Below, piece after piece: positions 22,578 through 36,058 of a stretch of 53,030 nt of DNA (the first letter of the stretch is position 1; each line of letters starts with the position of its first letter). The DNA comes from Methanomicrobium sp. (lineage in GTDB: Archaea; Halobacteriota; Methanomicrobia; Methanomicrobiales; Methanomicrobiaceae), in contig JAFPWZ010000017.1 in the NCBI GenBank assembly GCA_017412625.1, forward strand, positions 1 through 53,030, given 5' to 3'. The position numbers and the translations under genes were made by a program. The notes under the pieces are model-generated. The model saw only the letters and a list, made by a program, of their open reading frames with translations, ran no database searches and was not told the origin of the DNA.

Positions 22578-22664
22578 CGCTGAGGGGGAGATTTGAACTC
22601 CCGAGGGACATTAGGTCCCACGGGCTTTCCAGGCCCGCGCCCTACCGGTCTAGACTACCTCAGC
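22578..22664 (-). tRNA. tRNA-Ser (anticodon GGA)
   Basis: An 87-base tRNA. The acceptor strands GCTGAGG and CCTCAGC pair fully, the anticodon loop CTGGAAA is closed by CGGGC/GCCCG and reads GGA, and a long variable arm, typical of serine tRNAs, folds from TGGGAC to GTCCC. The T-loop is TTCAAAT. The discriminator is G as expected for Ser; CCA is not encoded. An AT-rich box upstream (22675-22695) is the likely promoter. Confidence 0.95.
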
Positions 22665-22766: not shown

Positions 22767-24752
22767 CTATTCGCGTCGGGTCCTGTTCTTCCCCGATTTG
22801 CGCAGTTTGTAGCCGTTTCTGTTGTTGACCCTCGGCGTATTCGGATTCGAGAACCAGGGCTCCGAATCCCTCGAATTATCGCGGCGGAATCCTCCTTTCT
22901 CACCCTTCTCTCTTCTGCCGCCGTCGTAACCGCGATCCTGTGAGCTGCGGCGTTTCTGACCACTGTTTGCGGAATGACCCGAATGTCCCCCATGTCCCGA
23001 ATGACCGTAATCTCCGCTCTCGCGGCGGTTTTTGTTGGAGACAAAGTCCTCGGAGAGCGAATACTCGCTGGCATCTATACCCTCGGCGGTAGTGCCGCGG
23101 ATAATCTCCCTCTTATACTGTCGGTCGAGAAGTTCGGAAGCATAGCTCTTATTGCCCGTTTCGTAGGCTTTTCGCGGTTTATACGCCGCGGCTTTCGAGA
23201 GGACGCGACCGCTGGGGACCTCGTCATCCGATGATCCGCGATCCCTGCGATCATACTGCGGTCTTCCCGATCTGCGGTCTTTTAGACCGGAGAACTCTGA
23301 ATTGTAATCGTTTCTGCCGCGACCTTCGTGTCTGTCGCGTCCGCTATCTCTGCTTCTGCCGTCGCGATTATCCCTGTAGCCGTCCCGGTCTCTGTTGCGG
23401 TTTCTCTCGTTCTTTCTGCCGCCGAACTCCTCATCGTCGTCGAAACGGCGCTTTTTACCGGAATCGTGTCTTCCGTAACCGCGACCGTCATAGCCGTCGT
23501 CGTAATCACGCCCGTTAAAGCCGTGTTTACCCGATTTGCGCCTGTCGTAAACGCGGTCGTCGTAATCACGGTCATCAAATCCGCGTATGTCGTATCCGCG
23601 TTCATTGTCGCGGTTTCTCTCGCGGTATCCGCGGCCGCCGTCGGCATCGTTCCTGCTCTTATTGAATTTGCCTTTTTTCTGTTCGTCTCTCTTAAAATTC
23701 GGCTTAATAACCTTGGGTCCGGAATATTCTTTCTTTGTCCAGCCCTTTTCGTAATTTCCTCTTTCCATAATCACTGCCTCCAAATTGAGGACAATACCCG
23801 TATCGCCGGGCTTATACTCCTCGGATGATTTGATTGCTCTTCCTATACAGACAAGTTCGTCTTTCTCGGTCATCACCGCGACCAGAGCATCGCGTTTGTA
23901 GTTTTCGCGGGAGATAACCCCCGTTCCTGCGAGGGAAGCGCCGCAGCAGAGCGCTTCAACGGCGGTATCGCGAATTTTCACGGTCGGAATCTGCCCGGTA
24001 AGGCGTTCTGCGGGCAGAAGCATCGATAATAACGGCTCGGAATTGCCGTTCCGCGCAAAGACAAAAGCATCTTTAATGTCCTGCAAAGTGTGAACGTCCG
24101 CGTCCGTAACCGCGCCCGACTTCGTCCGCCTTAACTCCTCCATCTGACCGCCGACACCCAAAGCAAGCGCAATATGGGTGCAGAGCGACCTTATGTAAGT
24201 TCCCGCCTCGCAGTCAATCCGAAGCAGAACAAGGCGGTCGGCACAGTCAAGGACCTCAATCTCGTGTATTGTGCGTATTCGAAGCTGTCTTCGGACCGCA
24301 CTCCTCCGCGGCGGTCGCTGATAGACGCGGCCCGTCATCTCTTCGGCAACCTTCTTCACGGCATCTGGGCTGACATCGGCATGGAGCCTTAAAACCGCGA
24401 TATACTCTTTTCTGTGCTTTAAAATGACGGGTGCAAGCCGCACGGCACGACCGAGCATTATAATGAGAACGCCCGAGACCATTGGGTCAAGCGTGCCGCC
24501 GTGACCGATTTTGGTGACGCTGTCACCGAATATCTCTTTGACCCACGCCGTTACCTGATGGCTTGAAGGTCCCTGCGGTTTGTCCACCGCGATAATGCCG
24601 CAGTTCAGGAGTTTTTGAACCTCGGGACTCAAGTCGTTAAAACCCGGATTTAAATCATGATTTAAACCCTGTAAGTCCTGTTTTTCTTCGTTCCCGTCGG
24701 TCCCGTTCATCGCATCGCCCGTCGCATTCTCTCGTACTCTCGTATTTTCCAA
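22767..24752 (-). CDS. cbf5: tRNA/rRNA pseudouridine synthase Cbf5 with a long disordered tail
   Basis: A 661-residue protein, about twice the usual archaeal length. Residues 45-330 are a normal Cbf5: IIAVDKPQGPSSHQV, the catalytic aspartate in GHGGTLDPMVSG (Asp89), KEYIAVLRLH, YIRSLCTHIALALG and a PUA domain from about 256 to 330. Cbf5 is the catalytic subunit of H/ACA guide RNPs and also makes Psi55 in tRNA. Residues 331-661 are a low-complexity tail rich in Arg, Gly, Asp, Tyr, Asn and Ser with many RG, RD and DR pairs and a His-Gly-Ser patch near 600. Residues 1-44 are an added hydrophilic segment. The frame is intact without any break. It follows hemD by 51 bases. Confidence 0.93.
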   Translation of the reverse strand: MENTRVRENATGDAMNGTDGNEEKQDLQGLNHDLNPGFNDLSPEVQKLLNCGIIAVDKPQGPSSHQVTAWVKEIFGDSVTKIGHGGTLDPMVSGVLIIMLGRAVRLAPVILKHRKEYIAVLRLHADVSPDAVKKVAEEMTGRVYQRPPRRSAVRRQLRIRTIHEIEVLDCADRLVLLRIDCEAGTYIRSLCTHIALALGVGGQMEELRRTKSGAVTDADVHTLQDIKDAFVFARNGNSEPLLSMLLPAERLTGQIPTVKIRDTAVEALCCGASLAGTGVISRENYKRDALVAVMTEKDELVCIGRAIKSSEEYKPGDTGIVLNLEAVIMERGNYEKGWTKKEYSGPKVIKPNFKRDEQKKGKFNKSRNDADGGRGYRERNRDNERGYDIRGFDDRDYDDRVYDRRKSGKHGFNGRDYDDGYDGRGYGRHDSGKKRRFDDDEEFGGRKNERNRNRDRDGYRDNRDGRSRDSGRDRHEGRGRNDYNSEFSGLKDRRSGRPQYDRRDRGSSDDEVPSGRVLSKAAAYKPRKAYETGNKSYASELLDRQYKREIIRGTTAEGIDASEYSLSEDFVSNKNRRESGDYGHSGHGGHSGHSANSGQKRRSSQDRGYDGGRREKGEKGGFRRDNSRDSEPWFSNPNTPRVNNRNGYKLRKSGKNRTRRE

Positions 24753-24803
24753 ATCAAAATCTCTTCTTTCAAGTCTTCTTAATATCGCTGTAAATTGTCT
24801 TAA

Positions 24804-25487
24804 TCAGCCGTAAACGTCGTTAAGCGCTTTTAACGTCCCCTCAAGCGAACCGTCGCCGACAACAGACGGCGTAATACCGTCATCTCTCATCCTTTTGGCG
24901 GTTACCTCGCCGATAGCGGCGGCAATAATCGGTTTTGTTCTGTCCCAGACCGAATATGTAAATGAGTTGGCGCTGGTAAACAGTATCACATCGCATCCAG
25001 ATAAGTCAAGCGGTTCTTTTGACGGGATGAGTGCATATATCGGTGTCTCGAAGACAACGCCGCCCGCGTTCTTTATCCCTTCCATAAGGTTCGGATTGGG
25101 GACATCGGCACGCGGAATGCCGATATTTTTGCCCTTTATCCAGTCTCCGAGATACGAGGTGAAGTCGTTTGAGTAGAACGACGTAAGCGTCTCGCATTCG
25201 ACGCCGAAGTTCTTTACGGTCTTTGCCGTCTGCGGTCCTATTGCTACGAGACGCGCTTTTCTTCCCGTATCATCCAGTAGCGGCGTTATTGACTGCGCCG
25301 GAAGTGCGCTCGTGAAAAATATGCAGTCGAACGCTCCGGAATTGGCTTTGGCAACAAAATCACGGATATTTTCCGGGTATAATTCGGCTTTCATGGGGGA
25401 TACGGTCCGGCACCCGTGACCGTATTTCCTGCACATTTCGTTGTCCTTTCCGGACTTTTCCTTGAGGCGGGTTATGGCAATTAACAT
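24804..25487 (-). CDS. hemD: Uroporphyrinogen-III synthase
   Basis: A 227-residue HemD, which cyclises hydroxymethylbilane to uroporphyrinogen III for F430, cobamide and haem-like cofactors. HemD is poorly conserved in sequence; the support is the two-domain layout with IAITRLKEK at the N-terminus, DCIFFTSALPAQSI, LVAIGPQTAKTVKNFG, CDVILFTSANSF and AAIGEVTAKRMRDDGI, which form the standard repeat pattern. TTG at 25496 opens the frame, but ATG 25487 lies about 30 bases after AATATTATC and is preferred. Probably co-transcribed with cbf5. Confidence 0.87.
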   Translation of the reverse strand: MLIAITRLKEKSGKDNEMCRKYGHGCRTVSPMKAELYPENIRDFVAKANSGAFDCIFFTSALPAQSITPLLDDTGRKARLVAIGPQTAKTVKNFGVECETLTSFYSNDFTSYLGDWIKGKNIGIPRADVPNPNLMEGIKNAGGVVFETPIYALIPSKEPLDLSGCDVILFTSANSFTYSVWDRTKPIIAAAIGEVTAKRMRDDGITPSVVGDGSLEGTLKALNDVYG

Positions 25488-25595
25488 TAAATTCAATTTG
25501 GCGCGATCTGATGATAATATTGCCGCATTCGATAACGGTATTCAACGCCGACATTTCAAAATCTCTATATTCCGTGATGACAATTATGCAGAAAT

Positions 25596-26945
25596 ATGAT
25601 CTCTGCCGCAATTTCGGTGATAATCCCTCTCTTTATCGGCATAATTCTGGGCATGATAAGCGGGCTTATCCCCGGGATTCATTCGAATACCGCGGCAGGA
25701 CTCATTTTATCGGCGGGAACGGGCATTTTTGCGGTATACGGTGATACCGGACTTGCCGTCTGCATGGTGGCGGTCCTAATCGTCCACACTTTTCTGGATA
25801 TCGTTCCCGGAACGTTTTTCGGCGTTCCCGACGCTGATACGGCGCTTTCCGTCCTGCCTGCGCACAGGTTGTGCCTGCTGGGTCACGGCGAAGAGGCGGT
25901 GCGGCTCTCGGCAATCGGCAGTGCCTACGGAACGGTCTTCGGACTCGCAATTCTCTCGGTATTCCTGCTTGTTCTGCCCGCCGTTCAGGACATGATAGAC
26001 TGGTGGAGCGGCATAATACTGATAATCGTGGCGGGCGTCCTCATAGTCTGGTCGGAATCGCCGGAATGGTCGTTTGCGGTCTTTTGCCTCTCGGGAATTC
26101 TTGGCGTGTTTGCCTTTGAGTATTCATGGCTTTGCGTCCCGCTGACGGAGGCAATCAGCCCGTCATCGGCATCGGTTCTGATGCCGCTTTTAACGGGACT
26201 TTTCGGCATTTCAGTCCTTATCTTTTCGAAGAAAGGGAGCATGCCGACGCAGACCTTCGACGGACTTCACATTGAGCGGCGAAGCATCCTGAAATGCGGT
26301 CTTATCGGGACTTTTGCCGGCAGTGTCGTCGGATGGCTGCCCGGGCTCTCGAATGCCTCGGCAAACGCGGTCATCGCGTCCTTTGTCAGATTTGAGGAGC
26401 CGCAATACTATGAATCGGGGTCAAAGTCCGCAGTGCCCGCAGAGTCAGGGGAGTCCGGGGATTCTGATGATTCTGCGGTTTCTGCGGTGCCTGAGAGCAA
26501 CGGCAGACCGGACGGCAGTCGGGGATATATAATAGCCGCAAGTGCGGCGAACACGGCGAATGCGTTCATATCAATCGGTGCCTTCTATGCGATAATGCGC
26601 ATGAGAAACGGCGTTATGGCGGCGTTTTCGCACCTGAAGGAACTGCCCGAGATGACCTTCGTCATAATCGCCGCCGTAATCGCGGCAATATCGGGTTATC
26701 TCCTCACAATCGGCTTTTCAAAGGCGGGCAGACTGTTTTCGGACCTCAATGTCCGCAGTCTGGGAATCTCGGTAATAATCTTCATGACCGCGGTTACCCT
26801 GCTCTTTACGGGCATATTCGGGCTGTTCATACTGATTCTGGCGACCGTTGTCGGCAGTCTGACGCAGATTATCGATATAAGGAGAGTTCCGTGCATAGGT
26901 GCGGTTATGATTCCCGTAATTCTGTTCTCGTTCGGCATTCTATGA
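25596..26945 (+). CDS. TctA-like permease, archaeal type
   Basis: A 449-residue polytopic membrane protein related to the TctA permease of tripartite tricarboxylate transporters. The hallmark N-terminal glycine- and proline-rich segments are present: GMISGLIPGIHSNTAAGLIL and the later DIVPGTFFGVPDADTALSVLP and GSVVGWLPGLSNASANAV. Members in archaea usually stand alone, without the TctB and TctC partners, as here, and their substrate is unknown. A Ser/Glu/Asp-rich loop of about 35 residues is inserted near residues 270-305 and is unusual. The stop codon begins a short tandem repeat. Confidence 0.82.
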   Translation: MISAAISVIIPLFIGIILGMISGLIPGIHSNTAAGLILSAGTGIFAVYGDTGLAVCMVAVLIVHTFLDIVPGTFFGVPDADTALSVLPAHRLCLLGHGEEAVRLSAIGSAYGTVFGLAILSVFLLVLPAVQDMIDWWSGIILIIVAGVLIVWSESPEWSFAVFCLSGILGVFAFEYSWLCVPLTEAISPSSASVLMPLLTGLFGISVLIFSKKGSMPTQTFDGLHIERRSILKCGLIGTFAGSVVGWLPGLSNASANAVIASFVRFEEPQYYESGSKSAVPAESGESGDSDDSAVSAVPESNGRPDGSRGYIIAASAANTANAFISIGAFYAIMRMRNGVMAAFSHLKELPEMTFVIIAAVIAAISGYLLTIGFSKAGRLFSDLNVRSLGISVIIFMTAVTLLFTGIFGLFILILATVVGSLTQIIDIRRVPCIGAVMIPVILFSFGIL

Positions 26946-27010
26946 GGATGTTCTGAGGATGCTCGGAGTATGCATCCACTGAGTATGCATTTTCCAAGTA
27001 TGCATTTAAT
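26943..27010 (+). repeat. Two tandem-repeat families after a stop codon
   Basis: The stop TGA begins TGAGGATGTTC (26943-26953), repeated as TGAGGATGCTC (26954-26964). Directly after come three 15-base units GAGTATGCATCCACT, GAGTATGCATTTTCC and AAGTATGCATTTAAT (26966-27010). The last copy includes the TATA-like CATTTAAT about 26 bases before nop5. Confidence 0.75.
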
Positions 27011-27037
27011 CATTCCTCGGGACAAATCCATACAGAT

Positions 27038-28042
27038 ATGCAGACTGTGCAGTATTGGTTCGGCGACGCGGAGATCGACGACGGCAGGGTTCGCAGCGTA
27101 AAATTCCTCAAGAAGAGCGGGTCGGAGGAGTATGCGGAGCGCTGCCGTAATATTGAGTCCGATATGGCGGATTTTGTTCCGCTCAGGGTTGCGGATGCGA
27201 TTGCGGGCGATAACGGAGATACCGCCGGTTTTAAGGACGAAGCCGAATACTTTGAGACCCTTCGTCTTACAACGATTGCGCTTGCGGAGTCAAAGATAAA
27301 GCTCTACTACACCAAAGGGGATATCGAGCTTGTCCAGATGGTGCGTGTGCTCGACGAGATGGACAATGTCATTAATCGCCTGATTGAACGCGCTACTGAG
27401 TGGTATATCGTTCAAAACCCCAAATTTTCGCGTAAATACAAATCCGTCAGCGCCAAAAAGATGGTCGATATCATGCGGCGCGAGAAGAACTCTCTCGGCA
27501 GGCTCGGTTACGAGATTGACAGGCTCTCGATTGAGAGAACGCGCCTTATGCGCGAGATATCCGACAGAGCGGACATCATCGCTCCGAATTGCAGTGCGCT
27601 GGTCGGCGGTCTCGTTGCCGCAAGACTCATCTCTCGTGCCGGCAGTCTGTCGCGGATGGCGATGATGCCTGCTTCCGCTGTTCAGGTTCTGGGCGCGGAG
27701 AGCGCTCTTTTCACTCATCTTCGCGGGAATACGCCGTCACCCAAGCACGGCATAATCTTCCAGCACCGCAGAATACACAATGCGGGCATCGGGGTTCGCG
27801 GAAAGGTCTCGCGTGTCCTCGGCGGCAAGCTGGCAATCGCCGCAAGACTCGACTATTATCGCGGCGAGATTGCGCCCGAATTCATAGAAAAAGCACAGGA
27901 GCGGATAGATTATGTCTTTGCCGCGGGTGATGAAGGGGGCAAAGATAATGGAAATAATGGTAAAGCTGACGGGAAAGTCGACGGCAAAGATGACGGCAAA
28001 AAGAAGAACGATAAAAGCGATAAAAGGAGGTCTGCCGAATGA
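27038..28042 (+). CDS. nop5: Nop5 (NOP56/58-like) C/D RNP core protein
   Basis: A 334-residue Nop5, the scaffold that joins fibrillarin and L7Ae on C/D guide RNAs for 2'-O-methylation. The Nop domain is evident: the coiled-coil region from about 85 to 170, IAPNCSALVGGLVAARLIS, GSLSRMAMMPASAVQVLGAE, HGIIFQHRRIH and GKVSRVLGGKLAIAARLDYY. After about residue 292 there is a tail of some 40 residues built of Asp, Gly, Asn and Lys, ending in KKKNDKSDKRR, similar in character to the KKE/D tails of eukaryotic Nop56 and Nop58. The stop overlaps the fibrillarin start (ATGA). Confidence 0.93.
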   Translation: MQTVQYWFGDAEIDDGRVRSVKFLKKSGSEEYAERCRNIESDMADFVPLRVADAIAGDNGDTAGFKDEAEYFETLRLTTIALAESKIKLYYTKGDIELVQMVRVLDEMDNVINRLIERATEWYIVQNPKFSRKYKSVSAKKMVDIMRREKNSLGRLGYEIDRLSIERTRLMREISDRADIIAPNCSALVGGLVAARLISRAGSLSRMAMMPASAVQVLGAESALFTHLRGNTPSPKHGIIFQHRRIHNAGIGVRGKVSRVLGGKLAIAARLDYYRGEIAPEFIEKAQERIDYVFAAGDEGGKDNGNNGKADGKVDGKDDGKKKNDKSDKRRSAE

Positions 28043-28641
28043 TACGGATTGACGGAGTTCTGCTCTCAAAGGGCTCGGGCGGCGTTTACGGCGAGAAGAT
28101 GATGAAAGGTCTTCGCGTCTGGGACCCGTATCGCAGCAAGTTTGCGGCACTTGCGATGATTAAACCCGAGACCGATCTGGACGAAGACCTGCGGGTTCTC
28201 TATCTCGGCGCAGCCAACGGAACCACGGTCTCTCATTTCGCAGATTACGTGAAAACGGTCTATGCCGTCGAGTTCGCACCGCGACCGATGCAGGATCTCA
28301 TAGAGGTCTCGCGGCGCAGGAAAAATATCATCCCCATAATGGCTGATGCAACAAATCCGCGTGAATACGCGCCGTTTGTCGAGGAAGTCGGGATGATCTA
28401 TCAGGATGTCGCACAGCCCAATCAGGCGGAGATTGCTCTCGTCAATCTGCCGTTTCTGAAGAAGGGCGGCGTTGTGATTCTCATGCTTAAAGCCCGCAGT
28501 GTCGACGTAACGGCGGATCCTAAGGTAATCTTTGAGGATACTATAAAGACGCTTGAGGACGGCGGTCTTATCGTAGAGGATACATGCCGCCTTGAACCGT
28601 ATCATCATGATCATGCATGTATAATCTGCCGCAAGCCGTGA
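28039..28641 (+). CDS. flpA: Fibrillarin-like rRNA/tRNA 2'-O-methyltransferase
   Basis: A 200-residue fibrillarin homologue, the SAM-dependent methyltransferase of C/D guide RNPs. Motifs: RVWDPYRSKFAALA, VLYLGAANGTTVSHFAD (SAM-binding), YAVEFAPRPMQDL, IPIMADATNPREYAP, MIYQDVAQPNQAE with the catalytic aspartate, and LMLKARSVDVT with the catalytic lysine. The N-terminal GAR domain of eukaryotic fibrillarin is absent, as in other archaea. It overlaps nop5 by four bases with AAAGGAGG upstream, so the partners are translated together. Confidence 0.96.
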   Translation: MIRIDGVLLSKGSGGVYGEKMMKGLRVWDPYRSKFAALAMIKPETDLDEDLRVLYLGAANGTTVSHFADYVKTVYAVEFAPRPMQDLIEVSRRRKNIIPIMADATNPREYAPFVEEVGMIYQDVAQPNQAEIALVNLPFLKKGGVVILMLKARSVDVTADPKVIFEDTIKTLEDGGLIVEDTCRLEPYHHDHACIICRKP

Positions 28642-30172: not shown

Positions 30173-33028
30173 ATGACAAGCAAAAAATTAGGAATAGCAC
30201 TGTTATCCCTTGTTGTTCTTGCAATTTTCGCTGTTGCACCTGTTGCTGCAGTAGCCAATGAGTTTGCAACGAACATTACAACAGGCGATACAATATTTGT
30301 CGGTGAGTCCGGTTTGAATATTGACTGGACACTCTTACCGCAAAATAATGGTGCCATTGCATGGTATTCATCAGGTGCATCATATGCAGCTGGAGATTCC
30401 CCTGCAAAAGTACTGACTCTTACAGACGCGGCAATAAAGAGTTTCTATGTAAATCCTGGAGACTTTGATGGTTATACAGGACCATGGTATTCATATAATG
30501 CCACAACGCCTTCAAACACGACACTGGCATTCTATGTTACACAGCCTTCATTATCAGTGGGTATCTACAGAAATGACGGAACAACTTCTGTTGACGGCAA
30601 GAAACTCATCGCTGATGAAGCTATGAAACTTAGAATCGACAGTTCGTTCTCAACACTCTTCCAGCGTGCAAGAACGGTTTCAAACCTCATTGATGGAAAT
30701 GAATATTTTGATTTCTATGCACTTAACCTGACTGGTGATATAAACTACACAGAGAGAAATGTTGCCGGTTATGAGGAGTACAAAGATGCATACAGTGATG
30801 CTTTGAATGCTTCTTTAAATCATCCGGAGAATGTTACTGTAATCCTCAGTAAGATCAACCCAGGTATTAATGCATATGGAATAACGCCTAACAATGCGAA
30901 GCTTGAGTCATTAATTTTTACAAGTGATGCAAGTATTGTATATCATACATCACTGACAAATCTGCATCCCGATGTGTCTAATTATTATGTAAACTACTAC
31001 TCAACAGACTATTTAGATGATCTGGAAGCCTATGACCACTACTTCAGCGATCGATCGATCCCGGTCTGGAGTGCAGGACGTATTGTTGATGAGAAAGAGA
31101 AGCTTGGTTCTAAGATTCTTACAGGAGAGTATCGGTTCTATGCAGATATTAACATAAACGGTATGAAAGATAACCTCAATTCGATCACCGGTAAGACTGT
31201 TTCCAACACTGCAACTGTTACAATCGACAAGGAAACCGTAACAATAACGGCAGACAAAGAGACTGTTATCCGCAACAACGGATTCTCTGTTAAAGTCGAA
31301 GGTAATCCGAAGACCGATTATGTTGTCTGGTTCACAGGTGTAAACGGCTATATCTATACAGAAGTCCCTGCATTTATCCAGAATCAGAAAGATGTAGTGG
31401 GTATGTCTTGGGATGATGCTGCGAATACGACCTATAAGACCTCAGGTACAACGGTCTCAAGTGATCTTCCTGACAAAGTTACGGCTGAGGGCGTTCTGAC
31501 CGGCAATTATGCAGTTGTTGCAACGACCGATGCATCAGGTATCATTAACATCGGTATAATGACTAATGAGGATACAAAGGACACAACCTTCACAGTTCGT
31601 GCACAGAGAGTTCTTAATCCGAAATTCCCCGATGGTTACAAGCTTGACGATCAGCTTTACGACACAGTAAAGGTAAAGGTCGAGAAAGGAGCAGTTACAG
31701 TCTCAGCATCAGGTGACGGTTCATACTATCTCGGTGAAGAAATTACACTCTCAGGTACAAACACCGACTCAGATGACGTTTATATCTTCATCACAGGTCC
31801 GAACCTCCCGGTTAACGGCGGTAAACTTGACGATCCTAAGAGAAGCCCGGTAAATGCATCACAGAGTACAAAGATCAATGTTAAATCTGATGACACTTGG
31901 GAATACAAGTGGGATACATCCGGTTCAGTACTTGATGCAGGTACATACACTATCTATGCAACTTCTGCATTTGCGTTAAAGGACGATCTCTCAGATGTTG
32001 AGTATGACACTGTATCCGTAGTAATCAAGAAGCCGTTCGTTACGGCAACAACCTCGGCATCCACAGTTGCAAAGGGTGACAAACTCTTCATCCGCGGAAC
32101 CGCAGAAGGTAACCCGACAAAGGGTGTCGCAATCTGGATTCTCGGAAAGAACTACTGGAACGGTGAAGACCGTAAAGATCTCTGGAAATCAACAATGAAG
32201 ACCGAGACCGTTAACGATGACGGTTCGTTCGAATTTGAATTCGGCACTGCTGATACAAAGAACCTTGCATCAGGACAGTACTTCGTAGTTGTCCAGCACC
32301 CGATGTACAACGGTGAATTTGATGTTAAGACATCAGGTAACAATGATGATCCTGCAAAATCTGATGCAATACAGGTAGTCACAAACCCGAAGGGAGCCGA
32401 AACTAAGGATACTGGTGTTGCCTTCATTATCGCAGGTAACAACAAACTTCAGGGTTCAGATGCTGCTGAAGCTTTAATTCAGGCAATCAACTCGGCAAAC
32501 GTTGATGATACCTACACCAAGCTCACATTCCTGGTTGAAGAGCCATGGATCAGAGTTAACTCCGTAGGTGACCACTACATCGGTGACCAGTTCAAGATTA
32601 CAGGTACAACCAACCTTGCAGTCGGCGATGACCTCATTGTAGAAGTTACATCATCATCCTTCCAGCCAACCCAGAAGACACAGAGCGGAGAGTTCTCCGG
32701 TGTTTCTTCAACCGTAAAGGTTACCGAAGGTTCCTCATACAATGAGTGGGCACTCGATGTTGACGCATCAACCTTCAAGGCAGACGAATACATTGTAAAC
32801 GTCGAAGCAATTGAAGCAGATGTTACAACAACCACAACATTCAACATCCTTACTGGATCAGCAACCGTTGCACCGACCAGTGCACCGACCTCAGCACCGA
32901 CCTCTGCACCGACCAGTGCACCCACAACAGCACCGACCCCGGCAGCAACAGCTTCACCCGGATTCGGAGCACTTGTTGCACTCATTGGTCTTGGAGCAGT
33001 AGCTGCTCTGATCATCAGAAAGGATTAA
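30173..33028 (+). CDS. Major S-layer protein, DUF3821 type, PGF sorting signal
   Basis: A 951-residue exported protein. A signal peptide of about 27 residues ends near AVAPVAAVA. The N-terminal motif DTIFVGESGLNI marks the DUF3821 surface-protein family of Methanomicrobiales. Repeated beta-domains follow, with segments such as ISGTNTDSDDVYIFITGPN-like and FVTATTSASTVAKGDKLFI. Near 905-928 there is a Ser/Thr/Pro/Ala linker made of repeated TSAP units, a typical glycosylation spacer, then PGFGALVALIGLG, a hydrophobic helix and RKD: the PGF-CTERM signal processed by an archaeosortase and lipid-anchored. The gene is AT-richer and prefers GCA, ACA and TCA codons unlike its neighbours, in line with very high expression. 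AAGGAGG precedes the ATG. Confidence 0.9.
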   Translation: MTSKKLGIALLSLVVLAIFAVAPVAAVANEFATNITTGDTIFVGESGLNIDWTLLPQNNGAIAWYSSGASYAAGDSPAKVLTLTDAAIKSFYVNPGDFDGYTGPWYSYNATTPSNTTLAFYVTQPSLSVGIYRNDGTTSVDGKKLIADEAMKLRIDSSFSTLFQRARTVSNLIDGNEYFDFYALNLTGDINYTERNVAGYEEYKDAYSDALNASLNHPENVTVILSKINPGINAYGITPNNAKLESLIFTSDASIVYHTSLTNLHPDVSNYYVNYYSTDYLDDLEAYDHYFSDRSIPVWSAGRIVDEKEKLGSKILTGEYRFYADININGMKDNLNSITGKTVSNTATVTIDKETVTITADKETVIRNNGFSVKVEGNPKTDYVVWFTGVNGYIYTEVPAFIQNQKDVVGMSWDDAANTTYKTSGTTVSSDLPDKVTAEGVLTGNYAVVATTDASGIINIGIMTNEDTKDTTFTVRAQRVLNPKFPDGYKLDDQLYDTVKVKVEKGAVTVSASGDGSYYLGEEITLSGTNTDSDDVYIFITGPNLPVNGGKLDDPKRSPVNASQSTKINVKSDDTWEYKWDTSGSVLDAGTYTIYATSAFALKDDLSDVEYDTVSVVIKKPFVTATTSASTVAKGDKLFIRGTAEGNPTKGVAIWILGKNYWNGEDRKDLWKSTMKTETVNDDGSFEFEFGTADTKNLASGQYFVVVQHPMYNGEFDVKTSGNNDDPAKSDAIQVVTNPKGAETKDTGVAFIIAGNNKLQGSDAAEALIQAINSANVDDTYTKLTFLVEEPWIRVNSVGDHYIGDQFKITGTTNLAVGDDLIVEVTSSSFQPTQKTQSGEFSGVSSTVKVTEGSSYNEWALDVDASTFKADEYIVNVEAIEADVTTTTTFNILTGSATVAPTSAPTSAPTSAPTSAPTTAPTPAATASPGFGALVALIGLGAVAALIIRKD

Positions 33029-33047
33029 ATTAATCCCTAAAATCAAA

Positions 33048-33057
33048 TTTTTTTTTT
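33048..33057 (+). terminator. Oligo-T terminator of the S-layer gene
   Basis: Ten consecutive T follow the stop codon by about 20 bases, a strong archaeal intrinsic termination signal. Confidence 0.65.
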
Positions 33058-33120
33058 GCGATTTTCTCAGACTTTTATTTTATTGTTTAGCGATTATACT
33101 GCTGATGTAATATTCTAATC

Positions 33121-33138
33121 AATCAGAATATTATAAAA
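33121..33138 (+). promoter_or_regulatory. Shared 18-bp promoter element, copy 1
   Basis: AATCAGAATATTATAAAA, containing the TATA box ATTATAAAA, ends 22 bases before the ATG at 33161. An identical copy with identical spacing lies before the gene at 36159. Confidence 0.7.
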
Positions 33139-33160
33139 CCAATAAAACGAATAGTATTTT

Positions 33161-36058
33161 ATGCACAGTCGTATGATTCCGTTTTTGGTATTGATTGGAA
33201 TAGTCTTTACATTCGGAATCGTTCAGGCATACGATACGGGAAATAAACTCGCAGTGAATATTTATCCGGGAGATACTGTATTTATCGGCGAATCCGGGTT
33301 GAATATCTCCGCTGCTCTCGGTTTGGAGACTGAGATAGCATATTTTTTCGAAGGTTCCAATGTAAAAACGGATGAACCTGAGAAAGTAGTTACACTCACC
33401 AATGCGGAAATAAATAATTTTTATGTGGATTTGGCAACATTTGAGGGCTATGAAGGTCTCTGGTATACATATAATTCCTCGAATCCCGCAAATATCGAAT
33501 TGGCATTCTATGTGGAACAGCCTTCATTATTCATAAGTCTTTACAAAGAGAATGAAACCTATCCTATCGGCGACTATAAGGTCGTTGCCGATGAATCGTT
33601 GATGCTTAAAATTGAAAGTCCGTTCGAGAGACTTTTCGAGCGTGCGTCCACCGATGCGAATAAGCCATACGGCGTTTTTGATTTCTTTGCAACCAATACC
33701 AGCGGTGCCGTAAATTATACGAATTTATCGGTCCCTGGTATCTACTATGGTCTTGCGTATTCTCAGGCTTTTGAAGCGGCTGATGAGCATCCGGATAATA
33801 TTACCGTGACCCTTTCCGATTCAATGCCGGGTGTCAACGTATATGCGGTTGCGCCGAACAAAGCGACACTTTCATCCTTGATTGTGGTTCCCGATATATT
33901 CAGCCCCGACTATAATGTGGCATCTCTCCAAAAATGGCATCCCGATCGCACCGACTATATGATTAATTACGATCATCCTGTCTGGAGTGCGGGACGTGTG
34001 GTTGATAATGAGAATGTTATCGGTCATAAGATTATTACAGGGGAATACCGGTTTTATGCCGACATTAACGTAAACGGCATCAAGGATAACCTAGGCGAAA
34101 TTGAGGGGGAGACCGTTTCATTCGTTGAAACGGTTAATGTCGAGAAGGAAGACATTACCATCAAGGCGGAGAAAGCAGTCATAACCCGTAATAATGATTT
34201 CTCGGTGACTCTCGACGGTACTCCCAAAGGACTGTATGCCGTCTGGATTACGGGCGTAAGAGGGTATGATCATAAAAAAGTGCCTGCGTTCATGAGGGAT
34301 CAGAACGATGTTACCGCGATGACCTATGCTCAGGCAGTTAACACGACTTATATGTCTAAAGATATCGCTTCCGATCTGCCCCGTGACGTTTATGAAGAGG
34401 GTGAGGACGAACATGATTACACGGGCAATTACGCTGTCGTTGCCAAAACTGCGGAAGACGGCACTATTAACTTAGGTCTGATGACGGATGAGAATACAAA
34501 GGAGACTATTTTTACAATCCGCGCTCAGAGAATTCCGAATCTGCGCAATCCTTATTCGAAAGATGACCCGAGCGGTTACAAACTTGACGATCAGCTTTAT
34601 GATTACGTAAAGGTAACCGTGGAGAAAGGAGCCGTAGCTATCTCGGCAAAAGGCGACGGTTCATACTACCTTGGCGACGACATCACCATCTCGGGCACGA
34701 ATACGGACTCCGATTACGTATATCTCTTTATCACCGGACCCAACCTGCCCGTTGCCGGGGGCAAACTCGACAATCCGAAGGTAAGCCCGCAGAATGAAAG
34801 CGACAGCCTGAGGATAACCGTCAATAACGATGATACCTGGAAATATCTGTGGGAGACAACACTGGGTTCGACTCTTGATGCGGGAACATACACAATCTAT
34901 GCAACATCGGGATTTGCGCTTAAGAGCGGCACCGAAAACACGCTTTCGGATGTGGAATACGACAGTCTAACCATCCTGCTTAGGAAACCCTTCGTTACGG
35001 CAACAACATCCGCCGCCACGGTGGCAAAGGGCGACAAACTCTTCATCAACGGAAAGGCGGAAGGAATGCCTTCAAAGGGTGTCGCCATCTGGATTCTCGG
35101 AAAGAACTACTGGAACGGCGAGAAAGATGATATCGGAAGTTCGGCAATGGTTACCGAGGGCGTAAACACTGAAGGCGAATTCCAATACGAGATAAGTTCC
35201 GCGGTTACAAGAGAACTTGCCTCGGGTCAGTACTTCGTTGTTGTCCAGCATCCGATGTATAATGAGGAGTTCGATGTCAGGGCCGAGGTCAACGAAGATG
35301 AAAACGCCGTTGAGGTAATCACGAATCCCTATGGGGCGAAGGATGCGAACGGAATTGCGTTCATCATCGCCGGCGCCGGCAAACTTCAGGGTTCCGATGC
35401 CGCGAATGCCCTGATTGCCTCGATAAATTCGGCGAACATCGACGATACCTATACCAAGCTCAGCTTCATCGTCGAAGAACCGTGGATAAGGATTAATACA
35501 ATCGCCGATCATTACGTCGGTGACAAATTCCAGATTACGGGCACGACCAACCTTGCGGTCGTCGACAGTCTTATTGCGGAAATTACATCTTTATCCTTCA
35601 AGCCGACCGATAAGACACAGAGCGGCGAATTTACCGGTATTTCTTCAATGATAGTCATTAATGAGGGTTCGGAATACAATGAATGGGCACTCGATGTCGA
35701 TGCTTCGACTTTCAAGCCGGACGAGTATATATTTACCGTAGAATCCGTGGATGCGGATATCAAAGCAACCACGGTGTTTAACGTCCTTGAAGGAACATCC
35801 GTGACTTCGCAGGCAAACGAACAGGAAAACGAACGTGCAGACGAATCTGTAAACGAAACCGAAGATGAATCCGCCGATGAATCGGCAGACGAGTCGGAGA
35901 GCGATTCCGCATCCGCAACTCCATCAGCCTCACCCGTCGCGACGACTGTGCCTACTCCAGCGGCAACGACAGCGCCCGGATTCGGGGCACTGATTGCATT
36001 AATCGGGCTTGGGGCAGCGGGGGCTGCGGCTTTTGTAATCGGAAAACATATCCGGTGA
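33161..36058 (+). CDS. Second S-layer-type protein, DUF3821 type, PGF sorting signal
   Basis: A 965-residue paralogue of the preceding gene, similar along its whole length: the N-terminal DTVFIGESGLNI, the segments PSLFISLYKENE and VTATTSAATVAKGDKLFI, and IWILGKNYWNGE, which is nearly identical in both. The linker differs: here it is acidic (Glu/Asp/Ser/Asn, about 830-915 onward) rather than TSAP repeats. The C-terminus again has PGFGALIALIGLG, a helix and basic residues, for archaeosortase processing. The codon use is that of the average gene in the window, so this copy is probably less expressed than the first. The start fits a leaderless message from the element at 33121-33138. Confidence 0.88.
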   Translation: MHSRMIPFLVLIGIVFTFGIVQAYDTGNKLAVNIYPGDTVFIGESGLNISAALGLETEIAYFFEGSNVKTDEPEKVVTLTNAEINNFYVDLATFEGYEGLWYTYNSSNPANIELAFYVEQPSLFISLYKENETYPIGDYKVVADESLMLKIESPFERLFERASTDANKPYGVFDFFATNTSGAVNYTNLSVPGIYYGLAYSQAFEAADEHPDNITVTLSDSMPGVNVYAVAPNKATLSSLIVVPDIFSPDYNVASLQKWHPDRTDYMINYDHPVWSAGRVVDNENVIGHKIITGEYRFYADINVNGIKDNLGEIEGETVSFVETVNVEKEDITIKAEKAVITRNNDFSVTLDGTPKGLYAVWITGVRGYDHKKVPAFMRDQNDVTAMTYAQAVNTTYMSKDIASDLPRDVYEEGEDEHDYTGNYAVVAKTAEDGTINLGLMTDENTKETIFTIRAQRIPNLRNPYSKDDPSGYKLDDQLYDYVKVTVEKGAVAISAKGDGSYYLGDDITISGTNTDSDYVYLFITGPNLPVAGGKLDNPKVSPQNESDSLRITVNNDDTWKYLWETTLGSTLDAGTYTIYATSGFALKSGTENTLSDVEYDSLTILLRKPFVTATTSAATVAKGDKLFINGKAEGMPSKGVAIWILGKNYWNGEKDDIGSSAMVTEGVNTEGEFQYEISSAVTRELASGQYFVVVQHPMYNEEFDVRAEVNEDENAVEVITNPYGAKDANGIAFIIAGAGKLQGSDAANALIASINSANIDDTYTKLSFIVEEPWIRINTIADHYVGDKFQITGTTNLAVVDSLIAEITSLSFKPTDKTQSGEFTGISSMIVINEGSEYNEWALDVDASTFKPDEYIFTVESVDADIKATTVFNVLEGTSVTSQANEQENERADESVNETEDESADESADESESDSASATPSASPVATTVPTPAATTAPGFGALIALIGLGAAGAAAFVIGKHIR

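Follow-up and report, generated by a model that had tools for sequence, protein, structure and literature searches.

A conserved mixed-charge C-terminal tail on the archaeal pseudouridine synthase Cbf5 of Methanomicrobium, a candidate RNA-affine tether

In the window (the whole stretch of Methanomicrobium sp. DNA that was analysed, 53,030 nucleotides), the open frame of the pseudouridine synthase Cbf5 runs on past the conserved domains of the enzyme into a tail of 316 aa that is strongly polyampholytic and, since its gaps relative to the nearest species are in frame, its dS is like that of the enzyme core and its dN/dS is low, can be taken to be translated and selected. We favour the reading that the tail, through its affinity for RNA and its docking motifs, would tether the pseudouridylation complex near nascent rRNA, while stopping just short of calling it probable. 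The gene and its parts are as follows.

22767–24752, minus strand: Cbf5 open frame, 661 codons counted from a TTG.
23718–24632, minus strand: catalytic and PUA domains of Cbf5, 305 aa (Pfam, NF003280/TIGR00425).
22770–23717, minus strand: non-homologous tail, 316 aa, following the Cbf5 domain matches.
23235–23717, minus strand: tail part 1, an Arg/Asp/Gly/Tyr-rich mixed-charge region, 161 aa (composition, codon comparison).
23007–23234, minus strand: tail part 2, the nearly invariant block SSDDEVPSGRVLSKAAAYKPRKAYETGNKSYASELLDRQYKREIIRGTTAEGIDASEYSLSEDFVSNKNRRESGDY, 76 aa, possibly a conditional helix (codon comparison, AlphaFold2).
22875–23006, minus strand: tail part 3, a His-Gly-Ser patch and an R/K/G-rich stretch, 44 aa (codon comparison).
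22770–22874, minus strand: tail part 4, the conserved final 35 aa, SRDSEPWFSNPNTPRVNNRNGYKLRKSGKNRTRRE (codon comparison).

Judged by its family matches, the open frame encodes a genuine archaeal Cbf5. Residues 43–342 match the NF003280 model with 374.3 bits (cut-off 242), the TIGR00425 score is 330.6 bits (cut-off 238.15), and Pfam finds TruB_N, TruB_C_2 and PUA, the last with 43.9 bits. Within the GGTLDP motif, G72, T73, L74, D75 and P76 are invariant in a 34-sequence Cbf5 alignment; D75 is the catalytic residue. AlphaFold2 models the core with pLDDT mostly above 90, and the closest solved chains are Cbf5 of Pyrococcus (2HVY/2EY4) and Methanocaldococcus (2APO), with E of about 1e-77, followed by human dyskerin and yeast Cbf5. 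The protein does carry a long extension after the PUA domain, yet its membership in the Cbf5 family stands, because the family models do not require the protein to end there. Translation probably starts at the ATG at 24710, which gives a protein of 647 aa, since the matching ATG of the RGIG7908 ortholog is closely preceded by a stop codon. The nearest genome is that of Methanomicrobium mobile BP, whose Cbf5 core is 96% identical. A tRNA gene on the same strand as Cbf5 (22578–22664, minus) follows its stop codon after about 100 bp. On the plus strand, a 166-aa open frame (23328–23828) faces the tail; we read it as a by-product of the R/D codons opposite.

The tail consists of 18% Arg, 14% Gly, 12% Asp, 8% Lys and 6% Tyr, with Tyr and Phe together making up 9–10%. 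Its fraction of charged residues is 0.45, the net charge per residue +0.07 and kappa 0.17, so that it is a strong polyampholyte; acidic residues account for 18%, Gly plus Arg for a fraction of 0.32, and RGG motifs number 0. Tail part 1 has a fraction charged of 0.53, and its densest 60-aa window reaches 0.27 Arg, 0.28 acidic residues and 0.23 Asp. The M. mobile tail is nearly identical to that of the window in charge, kappa, Gly plus Arg and RGG figures, and that of RGIG7908 is close. The initial annotation had described a tail of 330 residues with many RG, RD and DR pairs, Tyr residues and a His-Gly-Ser patch. Long the tail is, though at 316 aa past the Cbf5 match it falls short of that figure; the RD and DR pairs, the Tyr residues and the patch (GHSGHGGHSGHS) are present as described. 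RG pairs, of which the R/D-rich part has 6 against 5.4 expected from composition, are not in excess; GR, RD and above all RGY and YD are more frequent there than in shuffled sequences. Neither Pfam nor the PDB yielded a family or structure match for the tail, its 155-aa C-terminal part had no relative among viral contigs, phages and plasmids, and no second copy of the tail was detected elsewhere in the genome to which the window belongs.

Codon comparison with M. mobile revealed how differently the parts of the tail evolve. The two tails are 87% identical with 24 gap codons, all indels are in frame, and dN/dS is 0.19 for the whole tail against 0.06 for the Cbf5 core; dS of every tail part resembles that of the core. 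By parts, dN/dS is lowest in the 76-aa block (0.04, 97% identity) and next lowest in the last 35 aa (0.12, 91% identity); the His-Gly-Ser part has 0.21 and the R/D-rich region 0.25. Against RGIG7908, whose contig ends within the tail, identity over the R/D-rich part falls to 59%, with gaps of 36 codons and a dN/dS of 0.36, and the first residues past the PUA domain (PKVIKPNFKRDEQKKGK) are identical in all three species. The 76-aa block was found only in the window genome and in M. mobile, the RGIG7908 contig stopping before the position of the block. On these comparisons, the tail is a mosaic in which the R/D-rich and His-Gly-Ser parts drift, and the block and the last 35 aa are held nearly as firmly as the enzyme. 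The initial annotation had missed this strong constraint on two segments, which, at the level of sequence, points to docking besides bulk chemistry. Its claim of a real tail in an unbroken frame was borne out by the in-frame indels, by the dN/dS and by the in-frame tails of all six genomes of the genus described below; the absence from sister strains with signs of a frameshift, which would have told against it, was not seen. A chance open frame or frameshift product is ruled out on the same grounds.

The tail is predicted to be intrinsically disordered, both from its composition and from the AlphaFold2 model, in which residues 346–647 have pLDDT below 50 almost throughout and no secondary structure. 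Disorder prediction was among the checks proposed at the outset, and its outcome agrees with the expectation. When the block was folded alone together with its M. mobile partner, helices appeared at residues 18–25 and 29–46 with pLDDT of about 70, which hints that the block folds conditionally; as the AlphaFold2 alignment held two sequences, the predicted helix is weak evidence.

An in-frame Cbf5 tail is found in each of the six genomes of the genus, with lengths of 316, 326, at least 173 (truncated by a contig end), 380, 135 and 108 aa. Past the closest species, the tails are mostly unalignable, and still all of them are strong polyampholytes, with 0.39–0.51 charged residues (0.39–0.46 in the species whose tails do not align) and a slightly positive net charge. 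Physical character rather than sequence thus appears to be kept. The 380-aa tail of genome G003 (L004/L033) consists of tandem repeats of ~25 aa (RTDRPYSAERKSEFQKSDRP, TDRPYSAERKSEFQKSDRPRTTGR), so that a polyampholyte tail was reached there in another way. In genomes G001 and G004 the tails contain about 20% Lys and no KKE/KKD repeats. The tails of G001, G003 and G004 share a final FQPYxK followed by basic residues, although they range from 108 to 380 aa in length (pairwise shuffle p ≤ 0.003); a DNA pattern search of these three genomes located FQPYxK otherwise solely within short frames or well away from any C-terminus. The end of the window tail, TPRVNNRNGYKLRKSGKNR, is weakly similar to the G003 end (shuffle p = 0.015) and not significantly similar to the G001 and G004 ends.

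Outside the genus, an independent Lys/Arg/Gly-rich Cbf5 tail of 87–106 aa is present in five genomes (L027, L029, L038, L041, L042) of another genus of the same family, g6. A sixth g6 genome, about 59% complete, had no tail, and a seventh gave no match. The g6 tails have the motifs PGPK(K/R)RP and KSIQRKK in common close to their ends. The remaining relatives that were read out have 0–20 aa beyond the Cbf5 domain, and the longest tail read outside Methanomicrobium and g6 in the order and phylum screens is 42 aa. Both Thermoplasmatota loci (L034, L035) are without a tail; for Haloarchaea (98 genomes), the screen covers frame lengths. Most of the archaeal Cbf5 proteins examined lack the tail, in line with the premise that archaeal Cbf5 usually ends after the PUA domain. 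That long Cbf5 tails might be common in archaea was considered and rejected: the long frames read in the order and phylum screens are due to upstream read-through, and the apparent tails of L131 and L136 (192 and 251 aa), where the best-scoring domain is internal, came to little or no tail on reading.

Other proteins of this lineage were compared as well, several of them bearing a charged segment or a new tail. The features concerned are as follows.

27038–28042, plus strand: Nop5 (Pfam Nop), with a 41-aa Lys/Asp/Gly/Asn mixed-charge C-terminal tail.
28039–28641, plus strand: fibrillarin, without any GAR extension.
L115, 16254–18047, minus strand: DEAD-box helicase of the DeaD/DbpA type (orthologs L142–L147).
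L113, 17931–19661, minus strand: M. mobile protein of unknown function with a lineage-specific disordered tail.
L114, 12864–14333, plus strand: M. mobile polymerase IV-like protein with a lineage-specific disordered tail.
L106, 2131–3090, minus strand: M. mobile ScpA with a lineage-specific disordered tail.

The charged Nop5 tail pointed out by the initial annotation is real and lineage-specific: its length is 41 aa here and 55 aa in M. mobile, as against 4–21 aa in the other relatives with an intact C-terminus, three of the same genus among them, the RGIG7908 copy being cut by its contig. Its overhang is 0.54 charged. The M. mobile Nop5 (L160), at 377 aa, exceeds the 334 aa of its counterpart in the window and aligns with it in two separate segments, which suggests an insertion near residue 60. 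A long, R/D-rich linker in the helicase is confined to M. mobile, RGIG7908 and the window genome; in G001, G003 and G004 the linker is short and charge-poor. Three among 353 sampled ORFs passed the rule for Arg/acid mixed charge, namely Cbf5, the DeaD/DbpA helicase and an ORF that matches no family. The links with Nop5 and the helicase were drawn from targeted searches and from sampled stretches of sequence, and statements about the proteome are statements about that sample. A few kb separate Cbf5 from Nop5-fibrillarin in the window (22767–28641) and in many Methanomicrobiales genomes, which links the H/ACA and C/D loci. Further along the window (30173–36058, plus strand), there are two tandem genes for MEMAR-type S-layer glycoproteins, with a PGF-CTERM signal detected in the first only.

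As a lineage-wide control, 230 ORF pairs (some of them spurious) were compared in C-terminal length, one member coming from sampled stretches of M. mobile or of the window and the other from 400 kb of G004, a genome of the same genus without R/D-rich tails. The median change was 0, and the gain on Cbf5 was the largest. Other gains of at least 30 aa were those of the unknown protein (+194), the DNA polymerase IV-like protein (+97), ScpA (+79) and Nop5 (+32 to +46). Tail growth is thus unusual, yet wider than RNA modification, and since unrelated proteins have gained tails too, confidence in a dedicated system must be lowered.

For the Cbf5 tail, we infer that it has affinity for RNA, docks on partners and brings the enzyme to rRNA. 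The 161-aa Arg/Asp/Gly/Tyr polyampholyte would make weak, multivalent and sequence-tolerant contacts with RNA, and the block of 76 aa and the final 35 residues would serve as docking motifs, folding on or binding a partner. The H/ACA particle would be kept near nascent rRNA, or beside an rRNA-remodelling helicase, and the rate of modification would be raised at poorly accessible sites, a role demonstrated in yeast for the KKE/D tail of Cbf5. The FQPYxK end shared by tails of very different lengths fits a spacer with a terminal docking site. Alternation of R and D, on the other hand, tends to neutralise charge and can lower RNA affinity (PMC9324279), and the tails gained by ScpA, the polymerase IV-like protein and the unknown protein in the same lineage count against a tether as well. 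They would be expected if the lineage accretes charged disordered appendages that are largely tolerated, with the block as perhaps the sole useful part or the relic of a fused gene. The fast drift of the R/D-rich part relative to RGIG7908 and the growth of the G003 tail by tandem repeats agree with such accretion, which we nevertheless consider rather unlikely: even the fast part has a dN/dS of 0.25–0.36, the block and the C-terminal end are strongly constrained, charge parameters are kept over unalignable tails, every genome of the genus has a Cbf5 tail, and the sampled pairs have a median C-terminal change of 0.

The tail could instead drive a condensate, phase-separating with RNA, in concert with the Nop5 tail and the linker of the helicase, into a nucleolus-like body for modification. 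Its R/Y/G/D composition, with the content of Tyr and Phe given above, and the co-occurrence of charged segments in Nop5 and the DEAD-box helicase speak for this, as do the facts that Arg-rich mixed-charge domains (R-MCDs) enter membrane-less bodies and that yeast KKE/D domains self-interact (PMC9324279, PMC11528048). We regard it as unlikely, however, given that RGG motifs are absent and that charge is fairly well mixed, which, by analogy with R/D peptides, does not favour phase separation without RNA (PMC9324279). In yeast, moreover, the KKE/D domain alone is insufficient and GAR proteins are needed, whereas Gar1 and fibrillarin lack GAR here. A tether is therefore preferred to an autonomous condensate driver, because the tail is closest in composition to the R/D mixed-charge class, in which well-mixed charge disfavoured phase separation; forming a condensate with RNA is possible, but a tether does not require it. 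Another function would be on tRNA, with the tail boosting the guide-free formation of pseudouridine-55 by Cbf5 or stabilising tRNA at the PUA domain. Archaeal Cbf5 can make tRNA Ψ55 without a guide RNA, its PUA domain binds the CCA end (PMC7991803), and the tail leaves directly from that domain. Nothing here links the tail to tRNA, though, and the charged segments gained alongside it belong to the C/D-box protein Nop5 and to a helicase of the DbpA type, so that we hold a tRNA role to be decidedly improbable. DbpA of E. coli acts on 23S rRNA. Finally, the tail might be cleaved off during maturation, or an internal start might yield it as a separate product, the working Cbf5 being the ordinary short enzyme. 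Low AlphaFold2 confidence, the lack of secondary structure and the fact that nothing ties the tail to the core would allow for this, but the continuous in-frame junction is conserved in the genus, with post-PUA residues identical in three species, and removal or separate synthesis seems very improbable.

A 2024 paper describes extensions of this kind as absent from archaeal snoRNPs and as a feature of the eukaryotic nucleolus (PMC11528048), and a review gives N- and C-terminal extensions as setting eukaryotic Cbf5 apart from archaeal Cbf5 (PMC7991803). A cultured archaeon carries a charged Cbf5 tail together with a Nop5 tail and a matching linker on a DbpA-type helicase. It would be a bold and fairly unlikely extension of our data that an archaeal lineage has independently evolved matched charged segments, as in snoRNPs, on Cbf5, Nop5 and a DEAD-box helicase that would concentrate the machinery at nascent rRNA, a minimal nucleolus-like assembly without a nucleus. 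As a natural system, these archaea let one ask whether it was rRNA modification as such, and not the building of a nucleolus, that these tails evolved to serve, and what they do where there is no nucleolus. Ready controls exist in sister species whose tails are short or absent, and the mosaic of constraint, with a drifting charged region next to a near-frozen block and end, provides specific residues to test. A literature search found no papers on archaeal condensates, or on M. mobile and pseudouridine.

Among known systems, the solved archaeal Cbf5 chains (2HVY/2EY4, 2APO) have the catalytic and PUA domains in common with the protein described here and end a few residues past the match, where the window protein has 316 residues more; the yeast and human chains have about 133 aa past the homologous core. 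With the GAR/RGG domains of Gar1, fibrillarin and nucleolin, the tail shares an enrichment in Arg and Gly with interspersed aromatics. The likeness to GAR proteins that the initial annotation had drawn does not extend further and membership in this class was rejected, given the lack of RGG, a Gly plus Arg content of only 32% and 18% acidic residues; the organism's own Gar1 (a 77-aa open frame) has no GAR arms, nor does its fibrillarin have a GAR extension. Among eukaryotic tails, the fitting comparison is with the KKE/D domains of yeast Cbf5, Nop56/58 and Dbp3, which help to bring their proteins to nascent rRNA, make modification efficient, interact with themselves and, under stress, take part in compacting the nucleolus (PMC11528048). 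The hosts are the same (Cbf5, and Nop5 as the archaeal counterpart of Nop56/58), the position after the conserved domains is the same, and a helicase also bears a charged segment, Dbp3 in yeast and the DeaD/DbpA type here. At 0.45 charged, the tail lies above the 0.35 that marks a strong polyampholyte at the C-terminus of Cbf5 or Nop56/58. Unlike the Lys-rich yeast domains, it contains no KKE repeats, being R/D/G/Y-rich (18% Arg, 8% Lys), and it has a constrained 76-aa block and works in a cell without a nucleolus. Its origin is likely independent of the yeast tails, and we claim no sequence homology. By composition, the closest class is that of R-MCDs such as those of SNRNP70 and NELFE, with interspersed R and D/E, high charge density and a near-neutral net charge (PMC9324279); the tail likewise has dense, interspersed Arg and Asp/Glu and low hydrophobicity. 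R-MCDs gather in membrane-less bodies, and of R/D peptides those with blocky charge phase-separated and those with alternating charge did not (PMC9324279). The archaeal tail differs from them in belonging to a pseudouridine synthase, in its Gly/Tyr/His patches and conserved motifs, and in a setting without nuclear speckles.
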